In this document: positions 4,583-34,237 of the stretch, piece by piece
Position numbering within the stretch: position 1 is the first letter of the stretch
Layout: each line of letters begins with the position of its first letter
NCBI RefSeq assembly: GCF_014252095.1
Contig: NZ_CP059210.1
Coordinates: 543,218-607,217 of the forward strand
Origin: Blattabacterium cuenoti
GTDB taxonomy: Bacteria; Bacteroidota; Bacteroidia; Flavobacteriales; Blattabacteriaceae
DNA length: 64,000 nucleotides
Direction: 5' to 3'
The notes under the pieces: generated by a model
Told to the model about the DNA's origin: nothing
Databases searched by the model: none
What the model saw: only the letters and a program-made list of their open reading frames with translations
Program-made: the position numbers and the translations under genes

Positions 4583-5770
4583 ATGGCGGAAATAATATCC
4601 ATGCCCCAATTGAGTGATACAATGGAAGAGGGGACTGTAATTAAATGGAATAAAAAAGTAGGAGACAAAGTGTCCGAAGGAGATATTTTAGCAGAAATTG
4701 AAACGGATAAAGCTACTCAAGATTTTGAAATTGATGTTAGTGGAATTCTCCTTTTTATTGGCGTAGAAGAAGGAGGAAAAACACGTGTCAATGATATATT
4801 AGCCATCATTGGAGAAGAAGGAGAAGATATTAGCCATCTTATTAAAAATTCAAAAGAAAAAATAGAGGAGAAAAAGGTAGAAAAAATCCTTTCTAATGAA
4901 AATAGAAAGAAGAAGAAAGACAGGGTTTTTATCTCTCCTTTAGCAAAAAATATGGCTAAAAAAATAGGAATTTCTATCAAAAAGATAAAAGGAAGTGGAG
5001 ATTACGGTCGGATCATTAAAAGAGATATTGAAACATACGAAAAAACATTAGATGATAATAATAGAAAAATAATCCATGATAAAATGAATGAAAAACGGGT
5101 CGTTCTTTCTTCTATGAGAAGAAAAATAGCTGAACATTTAACTCATTCTAAATTTACAGCTCCTCACTATTATCTTATTATTGAAATTGATGTAGAAAAA
5201 ATGATCCAATTAAGAAAAGATTTAAATGAAAAACTCTCTATGGAAGAAAAAATTTCTTTTAATGATATTATTATTAAAGCAGTTGCAATTTCTTTGAAAA
5301 AGAATCCTAATGTAAATGTTTCATGGAAAAAAGAAGAAATAATTTATCATTCTTTCATTAATATTGGAGTAGCCGTAGCAGTAAAAGAAGGATTAATTGT
5401 TCCAGTGATTCACAATGCGGATAAAAAATCATTACTACAAATATCCCAAGAAATCAAAGACAAAGTTTTACGTTCAAAGTCTAGAAAAATAAAGCCTGAA
5501 GAGATAGAAAATAGTACATTTACCGTTTCAAATCTAGGAATGTACGGAATAGAATTTTTTACTTCTATTATTAATATTCCTAATTCTTCTATTCTTTCTA
5601 TAGGAACCATTACAGAAAAACCTATTGTAAAAAATTCAGAGATTTTAATCGGATATGTCATGAAAGTGACTTTATCTTGTGATCATAGGATAATAGATGG
5701 ATCTATAGGAAGTAATTTTCTTCAGCATTTAAAAAACCTGTTAGAAGATCCAATCCTCATATTAATTTAA
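4583..5770 (+). CDS. pdhC: Pyruvate dehydrogenase E2, dihydrolipoamide acetyltransferase
   Basis: This is the core acyltransferase of the pyruvate dehydrogenase complex, which transfers acetyl from lipoamide to CoA. A single lipoyl domain occupies residues 1-75 with the lipoylated lysine K43 in ETDKATQDF. A charged linker is followed by a peripheral-subunit binding domain around 115-150 (ISPLAKNMAKK...GRIIKRDI). The catalytic domain ends in DHRIIDG at 367-373, with the active His and Asp. At 395 residues and one lipoyl domain it is at the short end for the family. It is in tandem with pdhA. Its last 9 bp overlap the convergent terC gene. Confidence 0.95.
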   Translation: MAEIISMPQLSDTMEEGTVIKWNKKVGDKVSEGDILAEIETDKATQDFEIDVSGILLFIGVEEGGKTRVNDILAIIGEEGEDISHLIKNSKEKIEEKKVEKILSNENRKKKKDRVFISPLAKNMAKKIGISIKKIKGSGDYGRIIKRDIETYEKTLDDNNRKIIHDKMNEKRVVLSSMRRKIAEHLTHSKFTAPHYYLIIEIDVEKMIQLRKDLNEKLSMEEKISFNDIIIKAVAISLKKNPNVNVSWKKEEIIYHSFINIGVAVAVKEGLIVPVIHNADKKSLLQISQEIKDKVLRSKSRKIKPEEIENSTFTVSNLGMYGIEFFTSIINIPNSSILSIGTITEKPIVKNSEILIGYVMKVTLSCDHRIIDGSIGSNFLQHLKNLLEDPILILI

Positions 5771-6484
5771 TTTATTTTTTGTAAATTTCCAGGAAATAAT
5801 CATTGGAAATAAAAATATGGCTATGGTAAGAAATGAAAAAAAACTATCCAAAAAAAATTTTTTTTTCGAGAAAATGGAATGTATAAAAGGAGATAATAAA
5901 AGTTTGATCCCAAGTAAAAAAATTACGGAAAATGCTGAATTTTTTAAAAATGGATATAACTCCAATAGTTTCACAAATCCTTGAGCTGCAAATCTCATAG
6001 AGAAGATTCCTATAAAAACCCCTAAAAAAATTAATAAAAAGTTTTCTGATAAAGCTACAGCAGCAAATAGATTATCTATCGAAAAAGCTAAATCCATTAT
6101 TTCTATAGAAAGAAGAACCATCCAAAAAGAATTTCTAAGTTTTCTCTCTTTCTTTTTTTTAATAGAAGAATTTTTGGATGAAAAAAAATAATTTAATCCA
6201 AGATAAATCAAATAGAGTCCTCCTAATGGTTTTAACCACCAAATTTTAATTAAAAAAGAAGCGCATAAAAGCGCAATTCCTCTGAAAAAATAAGCTCCAA
6301 AAATTCCGTATTTCAAAGCTTTTTTTCTATCTTCTTTTTTCAAATCCATAATCATAGAAGCTAGCACAGCAGCATTATCTATTGATAAAATACTTTCTAT
6401 AAGAAATAAATTTCCTATAATGGAAATGGAAATGAGAGGATTTTCCACTATATCTATAATAGAATTTAAGAAAAAGTTCTTCAT
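5762..6484 (-). CDS. TerC family integral membrane protein
   Basis: This is a 240-residue protein with about seven hydrophobic segments. It carries the two TerC-family acidic signatures: ESILSIDNAAVLA near residues 29-41 and EIMDLAFSIDNLFAAVA near 130-146. RFAAQGF follows, near 166. Family members are implicated in metal ion (manganese, tellurite-related) handling or export across the cytoplasmic membrane; the substrate here cannot be read from sequence. The gene faces pdhC tail to tail with a 9 bp overlap. Immediately upstream on the same strand lie the remains of an msbA-like gene, so it may once have been downstream in that transcript. Confidence 0.85.
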   Translation of the reverse strand: MKNFFLNSIIDIVENPLISISIIGNLFLIESILSIDNAAVLASMIMDLKKEDRKKALKYGIFGAYFFRGIALLCASFLIKIWWLKPLGGLYLIYLGLNYFFSSKNSSIKKKKERKLRNSFWMVLLSIEIMDLAFSIDNLFAAVALSENFLLIFLGVFIGIFSMRFAAQGFVKLLELYPFLKNSAFSVIFLLGIKLLLSPFIHSIFSKKKFFLDSFFSFLTIAIFLFPMIISWKFTKNKLN

Positions 6485-6499
6485 TTTGACTATTAAAAA

Positions 6500-7388
6500 C
6501 CTTATAATCTTCTGTATTCTCTAGTAGTTTTTAAATTTGAATATTGATTCCGTCAATAGTTATTTCCTCTTTATTATAATATATGTCCAGGATACATGAC
6601 GAAATAAAATTTCATTTTTAACATGATAATTAGTATTCAAGATTTCAACAATACGTTCTGTATTTGAATATTCGATATGGAATTAAAAGTTTTCCTCCAT
6701 TTACAACACAAGCGGAAAGTTTTCTTTGACATTATTAAAAATATTTCTAATTTTTGTAGAATTTAAAGTTTTTTCTATCACAGAAAACAATTTTCTTAAT
6801 TGATTTTTAGCTTCTATAGCATTATGTTTTAAACTTTTACCTATACCGATGAGAGATATGAAAGTCCCCATTATTAGAAAAAATGCCAATAAAGTTAACT
6901 GAAATAGGAGAACTAATGATGTTGGCTAAATAATTCACCATAAATCCTTCTATTTCATTTACATCATTAGATCATCTTGACATTAATTATCAGAAAAGTA
7001 AAGACAATCCTTTCTGATGAACATCCTTCCGAATATTTCTGACTATAGATGTTCTGATTTCTATCATGAAATATTCAGCTAAATACTTTTAAATATATTA
7101 CGAATAAAAAAAGATTCCAATCGTTTTGATTTTTCCATATTTAATTTATATGAGAAAATTTCTATATAGTCATGAAAATTTTTTTGAATAAAATTAAAAT
7201 AACCATGTTTTTTTATCAGAAATTTCTAATAAAATACTCAATACAGGAGAAATAAATATTATTGATATGACTGAAAATAAAGAGTGTAAAAAATTACATG
7301 ATATATTAAGAATATAATGATCTTTATAAAATTTTGAGTAAGTTAAAATTTTTCCAAGTGCATTAATTTCTTTAAGTACACTGAACAA
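6500..7388 (-). pseudogene. msbA: Decayed MsbA-type ABC transporter
   Basis: Pieces of one flavobacterial MsbA-like exporter can be read in order on the minus strand, in shifting frames. Residues from 7388 give the N terminus (LTYSKFYKDHYILNI...SVISIIFISPVL). Near 7070 comes IRTSIVRNIRKDV. Near 6935-6900 comes SNDVNEIEGFMVNYLANIIS. Near 6845-6700 comes IGKSLKHNA...LFSVIEKTLNSTKI. After an apparent deletion come ERIVEILNTNYHVKNEILF near 6670-6600 and EITIDGINIQ near 6565-6537. There are in-frame stops and several frameshifts. The Walker A segment, the ABC signature and the rest of the ATPase domain are missing, so it cannot make a working transporter. The remaining 7389-7488 is an A+T-rich leader region ahead of secDF with no gene seen. 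Confidence 0.88.
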
Positions 7389-7488
7389 AGATAATTATAA
7401 AATTTTATAAGTAAACGAATAGAAAAATATTCAAAGATTTATTTCATCTCTATTTTTTATATTTTTACCGTAAAACCATGTAAATAGA

Positions 7489-10374
7489 ATGCGTATAAAA
7501 AATTCTTTTACGATTTTTATCGTCTCCTCACTTACTGTTATTTGTTTTTACTACATTCTTTTTAGCCTGTATTTTTATAAATTAGAAAGGAATGCTGATG
7601 TATATTCTAAAGGAAACTTAGAAATCAAAAAAAAATATCTTGAATCCAAAAAAAGAATAGGATTTTTAAAATATAATCATTCTAACGCAAGAAATAAAGT
7701 TTTAAATCTAGGCCTAGATTTAAAAGGAGGAATCAGCTTGATTTTAGAAATATCTGAAAAAGATCTATTAAAAAAATTTTCTAATAATTCCAAAAATCCT
7801 ATTTTTTTAAAAGCATTAAATCATGCAGATCAGGAAAAAGAAAAAAATCCTAATGTAGATTATTTTTCTTCTTTCCTAAATTTTTTTTATAAAAATAAAA
7901 AAAAATTCCAAACGGATTTTTCTATTTCTGATTTTTTTGTAAATAGATCTTATGTAGATGAAATCAACTATACAGATAGAGAACTTGAACAAGTGATTAG
8001 AAAAAAACTAGAATCATCTATTTCGGATACTTATGATATTCTTATATCTAGAATGGATAAATTTGGGGTAGTCCAACCAAATGTGCAAAGAATCAAAAAA
8101 TCCAATCGGATTTTAATAGAACTACCTGGAATAGAAAATATAGATAGAGTAAAAAATATTTTACGAAAAAGAGCAGAATTACACTTTTTAGAAATATACA
8201 ATTTTCAAGAAATTTTTCCTTTTTTTGAAAGGATAAATAAAATTTATTCAAAAAATGAAAAATTAGAACGAGTTGAACCGAATAATTTATCCTATGAAAG
8301 AAAAACTAAGTCTTTCATAAAAATGTTAAATATTTCCAAAATAAAAAAAATGGATAATAATCTTTTTCTAGTAGGATTAGTCCATAAGAAAGAGATGAAC
8401 AAGATTACCGATTTTTTAAACTCTATGGACGTAATGGAATATCTTCCATATACATTACGAAATGTAAAATTTTTATGGGGAGCTAAAACTTATCAAGAGA
8501 ATCAGGAAAAATATGTTCCGTTATTTGCTGTAAAAGAAGAAAATAATTCCTTGGATGGGGATATGATTACTAGTGCATATAAATCTTTTGGCCCTCTTAA
8601 CGAAATATTCATCAATATAAAAATGAATCAGGAAGGAGCTAAAAATTGGAAAATATTTACTGAAAAAAATATTGGAAGAAACATAGCTATAGTTCTTGAT
8701 GATTTAGTTTATACAGTCCCTTTTATAAAATCAGTCATTCCCAATGGGATTTCTCAAATATCTGGAAAGTTATCTTTACAAGAATCCGAAGATTTAGTCA
8801 ATATACTAAGTACTGGTAGATTGCCTACTTCAGTCAAAATAATTCAATCAGAAATAGTGGGTCCTTCTTTGGGAAAGGAAACTATACAGAAAGGAATATT
8901 TTCTTTTTTTATAGCCATTATTTTTGTATTTATTTGGATGTTTTATTATTATAAAATTCCAGGATTATATGCTAACATAGCATTAATTTTTAATTTGTTA
9001 TTTATATTCGGTTTTCTTATTTCCATTAATTCTGTATTAACCTTTCCTGGAATTGCAGGGATCATATTAACATTAGCAATGTCCATGGATTCATATGTTC
9101 TAATTTATGAAAAGATTAAAGAAGATATGAGAAACGGAATTTCTATTCATTCAGCTGTATATAATAGCTACACTTTACAAGGAGCTTTATCATCTATTAT
9201 CGATGGACAAGTTACTACTTTATTATGCGGGATTATCTTATTTTTCTTTGGAATAGGACCTATTAAAGGTTTTTCTACTACCTTAATTATTGGAATTTTT
9301 ACCTCTTTTTTTTCTTCTATATGTTTGGGAAAATTATTTTTAGAGTGGCACTTAAATAAGTATCAAAAAATATTCTTTAGAATATGGAATTCTAATAAAG
9401 TTTCATGGGATTTTTTATCTAAAAGAAAATTTTCTTATGCTATCTCCTTTCTCTGTATTTTAGGAAGTCTTATCTCTTTTTATTATAAAGGATTAAATCT
9501 TGGAATAGACTTTGTAGGAGGTCGGACTTATATTATTCGTTTTGATCGTAAGGTCTTACCAGATCACATTTCTTTTCTTTTATCCAAATATTTTATAGAA
9601 AATGGAAAACCTTCTTTTCCAAAAGTACTTCCTTTTGGAGAAGAAAATAAAATGAAAATAGTAACTAAATACAAAATATGGAATGAAAAAAACCAAATAG
9701 ATCAAGAAATTTTTGAAAAAATGTTTTTGGCATTAAAACCGTATTTTCATACGATAGATTTCCAGGATTTTAAAACTATAGATAAAGATAAAACTTTAGG
9801 AATATTGTCTTCAGAAAAAGTAGAACCAGTTATAGCAAAATATATAACTAAAAATGCTTTTATTTCAATACTTTTGTCCTTATTTGGAATATTTTTTTAT
9901 ATTTTTATCAGATTTAAAAAATGGCAATTTGGTTTAGGTGCTTTGGTTTCTTTGCTACATGATATAATAATTGTAATTGGATTATTTTCTATATTTCATG
10001 AATGGTTTTTTGTTCTAGAAATAGATCAGTCTTTTCTTGCCGCATTGTTAACCATAATAGGTTATTCTATCAATGATACAGTAATTGTGTATGATAAGAT
10101 TAGAAAATTTTCAAGTAAAAAATTTTTTTCTATAAAAGAAATTATAAATAAGGGTATTCATAGTTCTTTAACAAGAACCATGAATACCTCATTTATGACC
10201 ATATTGACCATATGTATTATTTTTTTCTTTGGAGGAACGACTATTCGTAGTTTTATGTTAGCTTTGTTTTTCGGAGTAAGTATTGGAACTTATTCTTCTA
10301 TATTTATAGCATCATCCATAGTATATGATCTTTCTAAAAAAAAAGAAAAAAATGATAAATCCTTTATTTATTAG
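7489..10374 (+). CDS. secDF: Protein translocase SecDF, fused
   Basis: SecDF uses the proton motive force to help pull proteins out of the SecYEG channel. SecD and SecF are fused in one 961-residue chain, as in other Bacteroidota. The SecD half begins with an N-terminal membrane helix and LGLDLKGGISL. It has a large periplasmic P1 region and then SGRLP-like STGRLPTSV with IVGPSLGKETI before its membrane bundle. The SecF half starts near residue 650 with GLNLGIDFVGGRTY and ends with LLHDIIIVIG and GYSINDTVIVYDKIR. The ATG at 7489 puts the first helix at the N terminus. tatA overlaps its 3' end by 23 bp. Confidence 0.96.
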   Translation: MRIKNSFTIFIVSSLTVICFYYILFSLYFYKLERNADVYSKGNLEIKKKYLESKKRIGFLKYNHSNARNKVLNLGLDLKGGISLILEISEKDLLKKFSNNSKNPIFLKALNHADQEKEKNPNVDYFSSFLNFFYKNKKKFQTDFSISDFFVNRSYVDEINYTDRELEQVIRKKLESSISDTYDILISRMDKFGVVQPNVQRIKKSNRILIELPGIENIDRVKNILRKRAELHFLEIYNFQEIFPFFERINKIYSKNEKLERVEPNNLSYERKTKSFIKMLNISKIKKMDNNLFLVGLVHKKEMNKITDFLNSMDVMEYLPYTLRNVKFLWGAKTYQENQEKYVPLFAVKEENNSLDGDMITSAYKSFGPLNEIFINIKMNQEGAKNWKIFTEKNIGRNIAIVLDDLVYTVPFIKSVIPNGISQISGKLSLQESEDLVNILSTGRLPTSVKIIQSEIVGPSLGKETIQKGIFSFFIAIIFVFIWMFYYYKIPGLYANIALIFNLLFIFGFLISINSVLTFPGIAGIILTLAMSMDSYVLIYEKIKEDMRNGISIHSAVYNSYTLQGALSSIIDGQVTTLLCGIILFFFGIGPIKGFSTTLIIGIFTSFFSSICLGKLFLEWHLNKYQKIFFRIWNSNKVSWDFLSKRKFSYAISFLCILGSLISFYYKGLNLGIDFVGGRTYIIRFDRKVLPDHISFLLSKYFIENGKPSFPKVLPFGEENKMKIVTKYKIWNEKNQIDQEIFEKMFLALKPYFHTIDFQDFKTIDKDKTLGILSSEKVEPVIAKYITKNAFISILLSLFGIFFYIFIRFKKWQFGLGALVSLLHDIIIVIGLFSIFHEWFFVLEIDQSFLAALLTIIGYSINDTVIVYDKIRKFSSKKFFSIKEIINKGIHSSLTRTMNTSFMTILTICIIFFFGGTTIRSFMLALFFGVSIGTYSSIFIASSIVYDLSKKKEKNDKSFIY

Positions 10375-12729: not shown

Positions 12730-14028
12730 CTATAAATTATTTTTTTTAAGAAAAACTTCCTCTATTTTATTTTTAGAAACTTTTTTTATTTCCATATTCC
12801 AAGTATCATTAATGATTATTTTTTCTCCATTTTTTGGAATATATCCTGTATGAAAAACAATTAGACCACCTAAAGTTTCATATTCTTCTGATTTAGGAAG
12901 ACCTAAGCTATATTTAGCATTAAGAAAATCAATTTCTAGACGAGCAGAAAATAAAAATTCATTATCATTGAATTTATTTTCCACAAATTTAGTTTCATCA
13001 TGTTCATCTTTTATATCTCCGAGAAATTCTTCTAAAATGTCTTCTATAGTTATCATCCCAGCTGTTCCTCCGTATTCATCTAATACAATAGCTATGCTTT
13101 TTTTTTTCTTAATAAGAAGATCCATGATCTCTCGAACAGGAGTAGTTACATGAACTAATTCTACAGGTCTAATTATAGACTCTATATTTTTTGGGTTCTT
13201 TAAAACTTCCAAATAATGAATATATCCTATAATATTGTCTATATTATTTTTATGAATCAAAATTTTTGAAAGTCCTTTTTCCGTAAATATATGACGAATT
13301 TTATCAATAGAAGAAGTGTATATATTGGAAGATACCATTTCTTTTCTAGGAATTATACACTCTCTTGCCTTTTTTTCAGAAAAATCTAAAGCTTTATGGA
13401 ATATTTCAACTTCAGATTCTACCATACCTTGAATGTTATTTTTTATGTTTTCTGAAACGAAATAACTTAAATCTTCTTTATCAAAAATTTTTTTTTTATC
13501 ATCTTCTTTTTCTCCTAAAATTTTTAAAAAAATATTAGAAATAAAAATAATAGAATTTGTGATAGGATAAAAAATCTTATATATCATATATACTGGAACA
13601 ATAAAAAAGCTTAATAATTCATTGGAATACAGGCTAAATATTATTTTAGGAATAAATTCTCCAATTATGAGAATAATAGTGGCGGATACTACTGTTTCTA
13701 ACAATAAAATGAAAAAAGAATTATCGTGAATTAAAAACCATTTAGAAAGAATATATAAAAATAATTTTTCCATATATATTCCATATATCACCAAAGATAT
13801 AGTATTTCCAATTAGCATTGTAGTGATAAATTTCTTTGGTTTTTTAATACTTTCAGAAAGAAGTTTAGAACGCAAAGATCCTTTCTTTTTTTCTAATTCT
13901 ATTTGAAACAAACTAGAAGAAATTAGAGCCATTTCCATCCCAGAAAAAAAAGCAGATAGAAGTATAGTAACAAAAACTATACTAATATGAAAAATCATAG
14001 GACTTCTTTCATATGGGAAAAATTCCAC
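12730..14028 (-). CDS. gldE: GldE/CorC-like CNNM membrane protein with CBS pair
   Basis: The domain order is a DUF21/CNNM membrane domain (about residues 1-195, with SAFFSGMEMALISSSLF and four hydrophobic helices), a CBS pair around 215-330, and a C-terminal CorC/HlyC transporter-associated domain. The motifs RKEMVSSN and VLDEYGGTAGMITIEDI mark the CBS region. In flavobacteria such genes are called gldE (gliding associated), while elsewhere the family is tied to Mg/Co homeostasis. A non-motile symbiont presumably keeps the ion or envelope function, but this is inference. The ATG at 14028 overlaps lptC by 20 bp; another start at 13998 would remove the overlap. Confidence 0.85.
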   Translation of the reverse strand: MEFFPYERSPMIFHISIVFVTILLSAFFSGMEMALISSSLFQIELEKKKGSLRSKLLSESIKKPKKFITTMLIGNTISLVIYGIYMEKLFLYILSKWFLIHDNSFFILLLETVVSATIILIIGEFIPKIIFSLYSNELLSFFIVPVYMIYKIFYPITNSIIFISNIFLKILGEKEDDKKKIFDKEDLSYFVSENIKNNIQGMVESEVEIFHKALDFSEKKARECIIPRKEMVSSNIYTSSIDKIRHIFTEKGLSKILIHKNNIDNIIGYIHYLEVLKNPKNIESIIRPVELVHVTTPVREIMDLLIKKKKSIAIVLDEYGGTAGMITIEDILEEFLGDIKDEHDETKFVENKFNDNEFLFSARLEIDFLNAKYSLGLPKSEEYETLGGLIVFHTGYIPKNGEKIIINDTWNMEIKKVSKNKIEEVFLKKNNL

Positions 14029-14551
14029 TAATATTTTTTAACCTAATTTTTTTGAAATCTTCAGAGGCTTCCAATCCATTCATTGCATGTAATATTGTTC
14101 CATCAGAACAATAGATAACTGTAGGTAAGTTATTGAATATTTTTTTACGTTTTCTATTCCAGTATATTTCCTCTGTTGTTAACAAATCTCCATTAGGATT
14201 CATAATCATTATCTTTCCTTTAAGATGATAAAAGTATTTTTCAGTTGATTTAACCCAATTTGCACTAAGATAAGTATACTGATCTTTTCCTTTTTCATAA
14301 AGAAATAATTTCAATCCATTTGGAAACAAAGTAAAAATAGGATATTCTTCCATAATTGGAGAATAAATAAAAAACCGAACAAGGCCTTTTTCTTTATATA
14401 AAATACTAGTCTGAATAAAAACTCTATAAGGAATTTCCTTTCTATTTTTTTTATTGAAAATTTCTTTTTTTGTTTCAGAACAAGAAAAAAGAGAAAAAAA
14501 TAACAAAAAAAATATACTTATAAAACTTTTTAGTTTTTTACTTATTATTAT
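14009..14551 (-). CDS. lptC: LptC-like LPS export lipoprotein
   Basis: LptC is the periplasmic bridge component of the lipopolysaccharide transport machine. The sequence has a signal peptide (LKSFISIFFLLFFSLFSC) with the lipobox cysteine, then a beta-rich domain. That domain includes FIYSPIMEEYPIF, LFPNGLKLFLY, GKIMIMNPNGDLLTTEEIYW and DGTILHAMNGLEASEDF, the pattern of Bacteroidota LptC. The frame continues upstream to an ATG at 14653, but that part is merely the reverse complement of tRNA-Phe. Between the tRNA and the signal peptide there is no ATG, GTG or TTG, only three consecutive ATA codons (14551-14543). Initiation there is inferred and the exact start is uncertain. Confidence 0.8.
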   Translation of the reverse strand: MIISKKLKSFISIFFLLFFSLFSCSETKKEIFNKKNRKEIPYRVFIQTSILYKEKGLVRFFIYSPIMEEYPIFTLFPNGLKLFLYEKGKDQYTYLSANWVKSTEKYFYHLKGKIMIMNPNGDLLTTEEIYWNRKRKKIFNNLPTVIYCSDGTILHAMNGLEASEDFKKIRLKNISGIFPI

Positions 14552-15226: not shown

Positions 15227-17713
15227 TTATAAATCTTTACCTATAATGAAATGGGTTTTCCATTTTGATTGAATCCCCCTTCCCCCATCTATAGGATAAC
15301 CTAAATCGATTCCAATAAGACCTATTGGTAAACAAAAAAAACGAAATCCAAATCCAAAAGATTTTTTTATTTTCAATGGATGAAATTCTTGATAAGAATC
15401 ACTAATATTTCCTCCTTCTATAAAAAAATTTGTCCATAACTTAGATAAGTTAGAAAAATCCTTAACTAAATAACGAATTTCTAAAACTAATTTATTATAA
15501 ATAACACCACCATTCTTTGGGGTAATATAATCTGAATCATTTATATGAGAAGAATATCCCCTTAATGGAATATAGTCTATATTTTCTAACAATTTGAAAT
15601 CCGTCGTATTTTTTATCCCTCCCATATAAAATTTTTGAAATGAAAACAAATTTTTTGTAGGATATTTTCCTAATATTCCAAATTCTCCACCTATTTTCAT
15701 TATCATTTTTTCTATAATTTTTTTATACCAAAAAGAATTGATCTTAAATTTAAAAAACTCTATCCATTCTGATCTACTTTTTTTAAATAAAATGGAATGA
15801 GGAAGGGTAAATATACTATTCAATTGTATGTTTGATCCTCTTAAAGGAAAAACGAAATCAGGTTCACCTGAAAATCTTTGTAAAGAGATTAAATAACTCA
15901 AATTATTTAATTTGAATAAATTTTTCTCATAGAAAAATTTATCATAATTCATGGATAATTCTATTTTAGTATAGGGGTCTAAAAATGTTAAAAGTTTATC
16001 TAACTTAACGGAAGTCCCTATTCTTTCTAAAAATCCATCATGAGGAATTTTTTCACTGATTTCATTTAAGAAAGGAAGAAAATAAATATCCTCATTATTG
16101 ACCTTTTTTTTGGAATACTTTATATTTAAAGCCAGAGCGGTTGGTTTATCTTTTTCTATCCAAGGTTCTATAAAGGAAAAACCATAAGATTGAAAATACT
16201 TTCCAAATTGACAAGACAATATAAGTTTCTGTCCGTCTCCTTGAGGAATTGGATTCCATGATTTTAACTGAAAAAGATCGCTAAGAGAAAAATTTCCAAA
16301 GTTTAATTGGAGATTTCCAAGCAGTTTATCCTTTCCGTATCCTCCATACAATTGAATTTGATTAGCGCTTTTTTCTGTAACACGCCATTCTAGATCTATG
16401 GTTTTATCATTATTTTTTTGGATATAGGGATATATTTTATTTTTTTCAAAAAAATTTAAATTTATTAAACGAAACAAACTAGACTTTATTTTTTTAGAAG
16501 AAAAAAGATCACCTGGATAAATGTTTAACTCACGTCTAATAACATGATCTTTAGTAATCGTATTGCCTGATATGTGTACTTTATTTATATATACTGGTTG
16601 ATTTTCTTCTATTTTTATTTCTAAATGAATTTTATCATCTTCGATCCTTTTTTCTACAGGGACTATTTTTACAAATAGATATCCTAAATCTAAATAATGT
16701 GAAATTATGCTGGAAATATTTGTGTTTAAAATGTTATTATTAATTCCATTTTTGTTATAAATATCTCCTCTTTTATAGGAGAGGATTTTTCTCAAAAGAT
16801 CCGTTTGTACAATATTATTTCCTATAAAATTAATATCTCCTAAATAATATTTTTTTCCCTCAATTATCTTAATTTTTACTTCATAATCTTCCGTCTCATT
16901 TTTCCATATAGAATCTAAAATTACTTGAACGTCTATAAATCCCATTGATTGATATTTAGATCGAATATTTTTTAAATCATCTTTGATGTTTTCGTACACA
17001 AAATAGGAGGATTTTTCTATGATAGGAATATGGATTTTTTTTCTAGTTTTTTCCATTAAATTGAGTAAATTTTTTGTAGAAAGTGATTGGTTACCATCAA
17101 ATAAAATATTCCCTATCCCAATTCTTTTTCCTTTTTTTACATATATATTTAATATGTTTTTTTTATTTTTAATAATTAATCGACTTTTTATAGACACTTC
17201 AGGGTATCCTTGTTTTACATAATAGTTTTTAATATCATTTTTAATATTTTGAATCAAATGTTCCGTAATTTTATCTCCTGGATGTATCTTTTGTATAGTA
17301 GGAAACTGCATATTTCCTATTCCTTCAACATTTATTTTATGAATTTCTATTAAATCTTCTAAATCAAAAAATAGATCAATTTCATTTTTAGAGATATTCT
17401 TTTTATAGATGGAAATCTTCCCAAAAAGATTACTCTTCCATAATTTTATGATAGCTTGATCCACTTTATTTTCAAGGATAGAAATTTCTTCACCAGGAAA
17501 AAGATGGGATAAATTTGAAACAAAAGAACTGTTATATTTTGTTTTTCCCATAACATAAATATTTCTTATCCTTATTTTGGAAAAAGATTCATGATTTTCT
17601 TGATCGAAACGCATCAAATTATCCATTCTATTTTCTGTTTTAGAATAGGGGATATGCAGAAGAAAAAAAATTAACGAAAATAAGAATAAATTTTTATTAT
17701 CCAACTTTTCCAA
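15227..17713 (-). CDS. bamA: Outer membrane protein assembly factor BamA
   Basis: BamA is the central Omp85 protein that folds and inserts beta-barrel proteins in the outer membrane. A hydrophobic signal segment (LFLFSLIFFLLHIPYS) is followed by repeated POTRA domains to about residue 430, seen as recurring 'i..I.i.GN' strands such as VHISGNTITKDHVIRREL. A 16-strand barrel follows. The lid motif VRGF/Y appears as PLRGYSSH near residue 717, and the last strands contain IGIDLGYPIDGG. The length of 828 is typical of flavobacterial BamA. Its start overlaps the uppS 3' end by 17 bp. Confidence 0.95.
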   Translation of the reverse strand: MEKLDNKNLFLFSLIFFLLHIPYSKTENRMDNLMRFDQENHESFSKIRIRNIYVMGKTKYNSSFVSNLSHLFPGEEISILENKVDQAIIKLWKSNLFGKISIYKKNISKNEIDLFFDLEDLIEIHKINVEGIGNMQFPTIQKIHPGDKITEHLIQNIKNDIKNYYVKQGYPEVSIKSRLIIKNKKNILNIYVKKGKRIGIGNILFDGNQSLSTKNLLNLMEKTRKKIHIPIIEKSSYFVYENIKDDLKNIRSKYQSMGFIDVQVILDSIWKNETEDYEVKIKIIEGKKYYLGDINFIGNNIVQTDLLRKILSYKRGDIYNKNGINNNILNTNISSIISHYLDLGYLFVKIVPVEKRIEDDKIHLEIKIEENQPVYINKVHISGNTITKDHVIRRELNIYPGDLFSSKKIKSSLFRLINLNFFEKNKIYPYIQKNNDKTIDLEWRVTEKSANQIQLYGGYGKDKLLGNLQLNFGNFSLSDLFQLKSWNPIPQGDGQKLILSCQFGKYFQSYGFSFIEPWIEKDKPTALALNIKYSKKKVNNEDIYFLPFLNEISEKIPHDGFLERIGTSVKLDKLLTFLDPYTKIELSMNYDKFFYEKNLFKLNNLSYLISLQRFSGEPDFVFPLRGSNIQLNSIFTLPHSILFKKSRSEWIEFFKFKINSFWYKKIIEKMIMKIGGEFGILGKYPTKNLFSFQKFYMGGIKNTTDFKLLENIDYIPLRGYSSHINDSDYITPKNGGVIYNKLVLEIRYLVKDFSNLSKLWTNFFIEGGNISDSYQEFHPLKIKKSFGFGFRFFCLPIGLIGIDLGYPIDGGRGIQSKWKTHFIIGKDL

Positions 17714-31558: not shown

Positions 31559-34237
31559 AATTATTCAACATTTGTTACTTCAAGAAAAAAGCATAAAAAA
31601 AAAATTTCTATTAGTTTCATCGGAGAACTTTATTGTAGAATATATTAGAAAAAAATCCTATACGAATTTGAGTCATTTTCCTGAAATTTATACAATGGAT
31701 AAATTTATTGAGAAAATCTCAAAGTTATCTCCATGTTCTGTAAATCAGATTCTTTTTTATTTTTTTTCTCTATTAAGAAATAAGAATAGTGTTTTATCGA
31801 AAAATTTGAACAATTTTCTGAATTGGGCTCCTAATATTCTAAATGATTTTCAAGATTTAGATATTCATCTGATCAATGTTGAGGGTTTTTTTTCTGACAT
31901 TATTTCCACGGAAAAAATAAAAAACTGGCATATAAATCCTTTGGAAAAAGTGGATGTAAAAGAAAAAAAAAATTTCTATTTTGGGAGGAAATTTATAAAT
32001 ATTACAACCTTTTTCAAGAGGACCTATTAAGAAAAGGAATAGGTTATAAAGGGCTCCTATTTAGAATAGCTATTTCTCGTTTAAAAAAATTTCTCTCCAA
32101 AGAAACGGATGTGAAAATAATCTTATTGATTTATAAATTCAATCTACTTTCTGAATATGAAAAACTTTTTATAAAAAAAATTATTCAATTAAATCAAGAT
32201 TCTATTCAATTACATAGTATAGGCGATATACAGATAAAAAAATCTGATGATTTTTTTATCAATATCCAGAATAAACCAATATGGATTAATAATCCACAAA
32301 ATAATCTAAAAATCATCAGCGTTTCTAACGAAATAGAACAAGTTAAAATAGTAGAAGAATTAGTTGATAAACTTATTAAAAACAGACAAGAACCATCTAA
32401 GATCGTTCTTGTCTTAGGAGATTCCTATTTAACTTTTCCTTTATTACATTCTATAAAAAAAATTTCAGGAATCTATCCATCTATATCCATAGATTATCCA
32501 CTAAAAAATCTTCCGATTCATTATACTTTAGATTCAATTTTTCAGCTATTATTAAAAAAAGAAAAATTAAAAAAATTTTCTAAAAAAGATATACTAAGAG
32601 TTTTATTAGATGGATATATCCAAAAATTTTTCCTTAAAAAGGATCTTTCTTTTATAGAAAAATTAGAGATAGAAGATTCCAATTTTATTTCAGAAGAAAA
32701 TATAAACAAATATTTATTCAATAATAATCTAAATATCATTTTTCAAATCCAAACTCATAATGCTAAGAAAGTTTTTTTTGGTCTTATGAGTTTTATTAGA
32801 AAATTAAAAAATTTATTTTTTCTAAATACAAAAAAACATCTGTTAGAGTTAAAATTTCTATCTGAATTAGAAAATTATATGCAAAAAATAAAAATTTTAA
32901 TCAGAAAAAAAGAATGTTCTTTTTTTGGAATAAAAGACTTATTTAATGTTTATCAGCAATTTATAAAAATAGAAAAAATTTCTTATATACAGAAAAATCC
33001 AAAAGGGATTCATTTAATAGGATTTTTAGATTCTTATTTTGGAAGTGTTGAAACCACAATTATGACTTCCGTTAATGAAGGCGTGATCCCCCCAAATAAA
33101 GAAGAAAACTATTATAAAACATTAATTCCCAATGATATTAGAAAAAAATTTAAATTATCTAGTTCTCAAAAAAATGAGAATTTTTATTCTCATCATTTTC
33201 AAGATCTTTTGGAAAATTCAAAAAATATTTATTTGATATATAAAAATCAACCTGATGAGCTAAATTCTGGAGAAAAAAGCCGTTTCATTCATCAAATAGA
33301 AATGATTTCAAACTTCTCCATAAAAGAAAGAAAAGATCATCCACTTATTCTAAGTACTCAAATCTCTCCCATTGTAATAAAAAAAACAAATTCCATGATT
33401 CAACGTTTATATGAACTAGCTACTCATGGTCTATCTCCTTCATCCATCCATTTGTACAATTATAATCCTCTTCTTTTTTACTACAAAAAAGTACTTGGAC
33501 TAAACATAGAAAAAACATCTCTTAAACAAAGAATAGGAAAAATTATACACAAAATCTTGGAAGTTTTATATCATCCTATTAAGGGAAATTTTATTACTAT
33601 AGATAGCATTGATACAATGAAAAAGAATTATGAATCTATTATAAAAAATATAATATCAGAAAATAAAAAAAGTCTAGAAGAAAAAAATCAGTTAATTAAT
33701 TCAATAGTAAATAATTACATAAAAAATTTTATTTCTTGGGAGGAGAAAACCTTTTATAAAGGACATAAAATTTTTATCAAAGAATTAGAATACAATATGT
33801 CAACTCTATTAGATATTGGATCGAATAAAAAAGTTAATTTATACGGAATCATAGATCGTATAGATGAATGTGACGGAACTATACGTATTCTTGATTATAA
33901 AATAGGGATATCAAAAATAAATCAAATCCATATTTCTTTAAGAAAAATAGAAAAAATTTTTCAAGATCCTCATTATGGAAATATTATGCAATTATTTATT
34001 TATATGTATTTATGGTTGAAACCATTTCATGGTTGTAAAAAAAATCCTCCACTTATAGCTCTTGTCTCACCTGAAAAAAATAAAAAAAATTCTATAAAAA
34101 CCATTCCTATAAATTTTTTTCATCAAATTACATATGAAAATTATATAAAAGAATTTTTACCATATTTAATGAATAGAATTTATGAAATTTTGGATCCAAA
34201 AATTCCAATAAAAGAAAAAAAAATTAATGATTTTTAA
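31536..34237 (+). pseudogene. AddB-like PD-(D/E)XK nuclease, frameshifted
   Basis: Two frames together make one flavobacterial AddB-like protein of about 900 residues. The first runs from ATG 31536 to a stop at 32030. The second carries on from about 31973 (FLFWEEIYKYYNLFQED, IGYKGLLFRIA) to 34237. The switch point is a run of ten A at 31963-31972; one extra A (or two fewer) would restore the frame. The C-terminal part holds a Cas4/RecB-type nuclease core with HKILEVLYH and NLYGIIDRID...IRILDYKIG, including the Asp and the D-x-K pattern. The protein would process DNA ends for recombination. Transcriptional slippage on the A run could still give full-length product, so it may be a working gene. 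It overlaps ribF upstream and leuB (convergent) downstream. Confidence 0.8.

Follow-up and report, generated by a model that had tools for sequence, protein, structure and literature searches.

Remains of an MsbA-like ABC exporter gene beside terC in a Blattabacterium genome

We report that the longest non-coding stretch in a 64,000-nucleotide segment of a Blattabacterium genome (the window; positions 543218-607217 of the 630,985-base genome G000) holds the remains of a gene for an MsbA-like ABC exporter, here called exporter A. The pseudogene is real and well supported, and its decay is a case of parallel gene loss that is ordinary in kind. The features of the window that concern us are the following.

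5762-6484, minus strand: TerC/YkoY-family membrane protein, intact, the anchor gene (PF03741 170.3 bits; TIGR03716 221.8 bits, above cut-off)
6485-7488, no strand assigned: spacer that held the exporter A gene
6500-7367, minus strand: pseudogene of exporter A (MsbA-like ABC exporter), with pieces left of codons 1-449 out of about 611 (tblastn, block alignment to the near relative G051, intact orthologues at the locus)
7367-6734, 6733-6706, 6700-6685, 6686-6630, 6629-6577 and 6570-6500, minus strand: remnant blocks, from alignment to the intact G051 gene
7489-10374, plus strand: intact 961-aa ORF on the other flank (ORF listing), which we take to be SecDF
14009-14536, minus strand: probable LptC, start uncertain (TIGR04409 27.2 bits, E 2.4e-6, cut-off 38 not reached)
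15227-17626, minus strand: BamA, with POTRA repeats and an Omp85 domain

When inter-ORF stretches were measured between ATG-started ORFs of at least 90 aa, the spacer, at 1004 nt, was the longest in the window, as the original prediction had stated. The second-longest stretch lies at 32031-32785 (755 nt). A translated search (tblastn) of 6485-7488 with the intact orthologue from genome G013 (P0001) recovered three ordered segments, in which 7367-6891 corresponds to residues 4-186 (146 bits), 6874-6734 to residues 208-252 and 6667-6581 to residues 345-385. Among 300 dinucleotide shuffles none scored above 23.1 bits, so that the anticipated similarity proved significant. Alignment to the intact gene of G051 extended this to six ordered blocks comprising codons 1-249, 263-272, 297-302, 331-354, 366-384 and 426-449. 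All five peptide fragments that had been reported in MsbA order on the minus strand, broken by stops, frameshifts and deletions, were present, with EITIDGINIQ falling within the last block. Although the remains had been given the limits 6485-7488, these are the bounds of the spacer, and the recognizable part occupies 6500-7367.

The catalytic core of the protein is gone. Walker A was lost together with codons 385-425, and codons 450-611 are absent from the remnant, which removes the signature and Walker B, both of which lie beyond codon 449. Relative to G051 we counted 17 indel or gap events, 12 of them not multiples of three, and the best match of the remnant is interrupted by three TGA and five TAA codons. 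On the minus strand of the spacer, the only ORFs reaching 60 aa encode 62 and 64 aa (6701-6889 and 7194-7388). The region therefore combines the marks of a pseudogene: ordered similarity to a gene of the same locus, a broken frame, lost catalytic motifs and, as described below, relaxed constraint.

The TerC gene is present in all 49 Blattabacterium genomes and served as the anchor for comparing the locus. Among the loci of all 48 relatives inspected, 34 carried an intact copy of A and 14 did not. The proposed comparison of related strains thus returned an intact orthologue adjoining terC in 34 of 49 congeners; the gene is absent in intact form from 15 genomes, namely G000, G002, G008, G011, G015, G017, G018, G020, G022, G042, G043, G044, G047, G048 and G062. 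In the first 24 relatives an ORF of 595-615 aa stood at the locus in 16, and the first 120 aa of the presumed SecDF matched the loci of 18; at the locus, SecD was not seen next to TerC in the six others (L093, L096, L097, L098, L099, L100). In G044 the TerC-family gene itself is split into two overlapping pieces with stops (G044:C1:522606-523275).

Beyond the genus, 25 genomes drawn from the order were searched for A at E<=1e-100, and G000 was the sole miss. Since all 24 other genomes of this draw have A, the gene is ancestral and usually kept; even G064, a strongly reduced member of the same family with a contig of 344,793 bases, still has it. On a tree of six flanking proteins (1912 columns, several nodes poorly supported) A was lost at least nine times under four rootings, with G000 and G062, which are joined with support of 0.942, treated as one loss. 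The loci without intact A form a decay series. Counted from TerC to the next ORF of at least 150 aa, the spacers measure 1654 nt in G018, 1363 in G062, 561 in G008 and 447 in G042, and A is detectable in these four. In the remaining ten the spacers range from 420 nt down to 88 (G002) and 74 (G015), and the locus comparison detected no trace of A. The window and its sister G062 carry 17 and 18 events, respectively, none identical in position and length, and codons 18-66 and 120-221 are missing from the G062 wreck. The two genes may have been inactivated independently, or they may have shared a first lesion that has since been erased; with no lesion in common, when and how often inactivation occurred near this node is uncertain. 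Among the 34 open copies, the H-loop histidine is replaced in five (G001, G005, G009, G010 and G045; the G005 copy is truncated near the H-loop, making its reading uncertain), as it is in G064 (L186), so a copy that is open may still lack ATPase activity.

Where A is intact it is under selection, with an omega of 0.065-0.237 in eight close pairs, similar to or below that of most of its flanks. In local alignment blocks to G051, the remnant differs at 18/256, 20/259 and 33/256 sites of codon positions 1, 2 and 3 (0.070, 0.077 and 0.129), compared with 83/1666, 32/1666 and 231/1662 in the pooled flanking genes. Change at positions 1 and 2 is raised over the flanking genes (Fisher p=0.0018) and lies below the neutral expectation of equal rates (p=0.017), and the ratio of positions 1 and 2 to position 3 is 0.57 versus 0.14-0.35 in six intact pairs. 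Because this divergence falls between flanks and neutrality, the data fit a gene that was constrained first and free later, having been inactivated part-way along this branch. A fully neutral remnant (0.213, 0.189 and 0.208 at the three positions) was rejected, as the global alignment behind these values had misplaced the 3' half. Of the recent loss of an MsbA-type exporter that had been proposed, the loss therefore stands, and it is recent in the relative sense defined by these two tests.

We next consider what kind of exporter was lost. Intact orthologues combine an ABC_membrane domain (PF00664, 131.5 bits) with an ABC_tran domain (PF00005, 114.8 bits). They share this fused architecture with MsbA (E. 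coli K-12 msbA, b0914), and their best curated NCBIfam family is MsbA_lipidA (TIGR02203), which they match with 447.9 bits, below the equivalog cut-off of 602. In contrast to the LSGGQ signature of MsbA, 33 of the 34 Blattabacterium copies have LS(L/M/I)GQ. An exporter tree was built from 16 of the 34 Blattabacterium A proteins, 21 of the 24 orthologues from the order (three were missed by the ORF filter), E. coli MsbA, MdlA, MdlB, CydC and CydD, and two further exporters, B and C, from three genomes; it placed E. coli MsbA at a node with support of 0.215 and gave it no supported grouping with A. At positions 78, 148, 296 and 299, which we take to form the lipid A pocket of E. coli MsbA, residues 78 and 299 are basic in 34/34 intact copies and residues 148 and 296 in 0/34. 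LpxA (PF13720), LpxB and LpxK were found in none of the 49 genomes, in searches whose controls gave matches. As the cut-off is missed and the three Lpx proteins are missing, we describe A as MsbA-like and refrain from assigning it to MsbA. Without these lipid A genes, the original inference of an LPS exporter is not supported.

The LPS-transport bridge and the two exporters B and C were also examined. The genes concerned are these.

L101:1217-1954: LptB, found in G000
G000:C1 18220-19434: LptD
G000:C1 257431-258483 and 333321-334547: LptF/G
G000:C1:614511-615272, and L179, L180, L214: LpxC-FabZ fusion
L101:3305-5038: exporter B, near lptB
L102:2781-4535: exporter C, beside two ORFs that are presumably groL and nusB

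LptF/G was found in 43/49 genomes and LptD in 36/49, although the 13 genomes lacking an LptD match are not trusted as losses because such barrels diverge fast. The earlier statement that lptC and bamA persist holds for BamA; the LptC candidate of the window, below its family cut-off, is a probable one. In pairs with G000, omega was 0.149-0.283 for lptF/G, 0.188-0.196 for lptB and 0.394-0.407 for lptD. The LPS-transport bridge is retained without lipid A synthesis, and it survived the loss of A. LpxC is present in 37/49 genomes and is fused to FabZ where inspected. In pairs with G000 the LpxC part of the fusion is looser (omega 0.255-0.284) than the FabZ part (0.095-0.160), and in G000 an LpxC motif has Glu for Asp at a residue that we take to be a zinc ligand. 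The fusion may be retained for FabZ alone. Loss of A does not follow loss of LpxC, which is missing from 5/15 genomes without A and 7/34 with it.

Each of the six genomes that have no LptF/G is missing A as well (hypergeometric 3.6e-4, with kinship ignored); a crude branch-length correction gave 0.014, a post hoc value confounded by small genome size. LptF/G was lost at least four times, always in lineages also without A. This co-absence hints at a shared route. The idea that A is an obligate feeder of the Lpt system is weakened, as 9/15 genomes without A keep LptF/G and the lpt genes are constrained in G000. It is conceivable, though we hold it only tentatively, that in Blattabacterium an MsbA-like pump and an Lpt bridge serve a lipid other than lipid A, and that this route is being dismantled piecemeal. 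An Lpt system without LPS has a published precedent in Borrelia burgdorferi: Lpt orthologues are likewise retained there without LPS, with the difference that glycolipids have been proposed as their cargo (PMC10353723). Papers that mention Blattabacterium together with msbA or LptD concerned, judging by their titles, mite-associated bacteria and stink-bug symbionts.

These data allow the main alternative to be weighed, namely that the lost gene was MsbA proper, the LPS/lipid A flippase, and that an outer-membrane LPS pathway was left without its inner-membrane step. The family match, the two invariably basic pocket positions, the persistence of LptB, LptF/G and LptD in G000 and the joint absence of LptF/G and A would all agree with it. 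Against it stand the missing LpxA, LpxB and LpxK, the unreached equivalog cut-off and the continued constraint on Lpt genes in a genome that has lost A. In addition, a modelling paper describes two Blattabacterium strains as unable to make LPS completely (PMC3287516). We consider this alternative unlikely.

The proposed check for an intact msbA paralogue elsewhere turned up exporters B and C, both intact in G000 and 31-32% identical to A. In the exporter tree C joins E. coli MdlA (support 0.997), and its Walker B is of the Asp-Asp type; B carries an MdlB-like LSxGxKQL signature and is placed there with support of 0.229. Both are strongly constrained, with an omega of 0.075-0.146 for B and 0.099-0.119 for C in the three pairwise comparisons among G000, G051 and G062. 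Their features suggest an MdlAB-type pair, a heterodimer encoded far apart; B and C are absent from the same 6/49 genomes (G007, G009, G010, G020, G021 and G048), as expected of such partners. The likeness to MdlA/MdlB (SmdAB) belongs to B and C, which stand at separate loci, and not to the pseudogene. Since C groups with MdlA and the pair looks MdlAB-type, neither is an evident MsbA copy. As a simple rule, mutual substitution of A and the B-C pair was rejected, given that four genomes keep A without B and C and two lack A as well as the pair.

A second alternative is that the remnant still functions, its small ORFs encoding a shortened membrane protein or the region acting as a regulatory RNA. 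Both ORFs are indeed open, and position 3 changes more than positions 1 and 2 across the remnant as a whole. Within the ORFs, however, differences from G051 are spread evenly over the codon positions (5/4/6 and 11/8/10, from the global alignment, whose 3' half is unreliable), the deletions in G062 take out most of the first ORF, and no trace of A can be detected in ten of the 14 further genomes that lack an intact copy. We regard a functional remnant as very improbable. Although the sequence is known from a single assembly, it is scarcely credible that errors of sequencing or assembly have disguised an intact gene, when half of its length is gone, base substitutions are relaxed too, both neighbours are intact and an independent wreck occupies the same place in G062.

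The remnant is thus very probably an ordinary genome-erosion pseudogene of an ancestral flavobacterial MsbA-like exporter, whose loss was tolerated in a genus that no longer has the lipid A pathway. What A carried and why it was lost we infer as follows. Judged by its family, intact A would have been an inner-membrane homodimer that drove the outward movement of an amphipathic, lipid-like cargo with ATP. After the split from G051, as the alignment shows, many small deletions took away portions of the membrane domain along with Walker A and the entire catalytic C-terminal part. The host of the gene is an obligate insect endosymbiont, in which such decay would proceed by ordinary genome erosion. 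With lipid A synthesis absent, the cargo of the pump may be at most dispensable or replaceable. The absence of lipid A cannot by itself account for A being dispensable here and not elsewhere, because intact A is strongly constrained in genomes that are likewise without LpxA, LpxB and LpxK, and seven of the 34 genomes that keep A have no LpxC either.

Gene loss across Blattabacterium is reportedly the subject of a study in Mol Biol Evol 2021. A possible parallel within the genus comes from the symbiont of Periplaneta fuliginosa, whose published pseudogenes include 'ygaD', a gene for an ABC transporter ATP-binding protein (PMC6039017). The exporter A locus is a further example of an insect endosymbiont losing a gene in parallel lineages, and among the relatives the stages of decay form a clear series. 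It also exposes a contrast, in that an exporter and an LPS-transport bridge are protected by selection in bacteria without lipid A synthesis. What other cargo such a pump and bridge can move may thereby be put to the test on a defined genome set.
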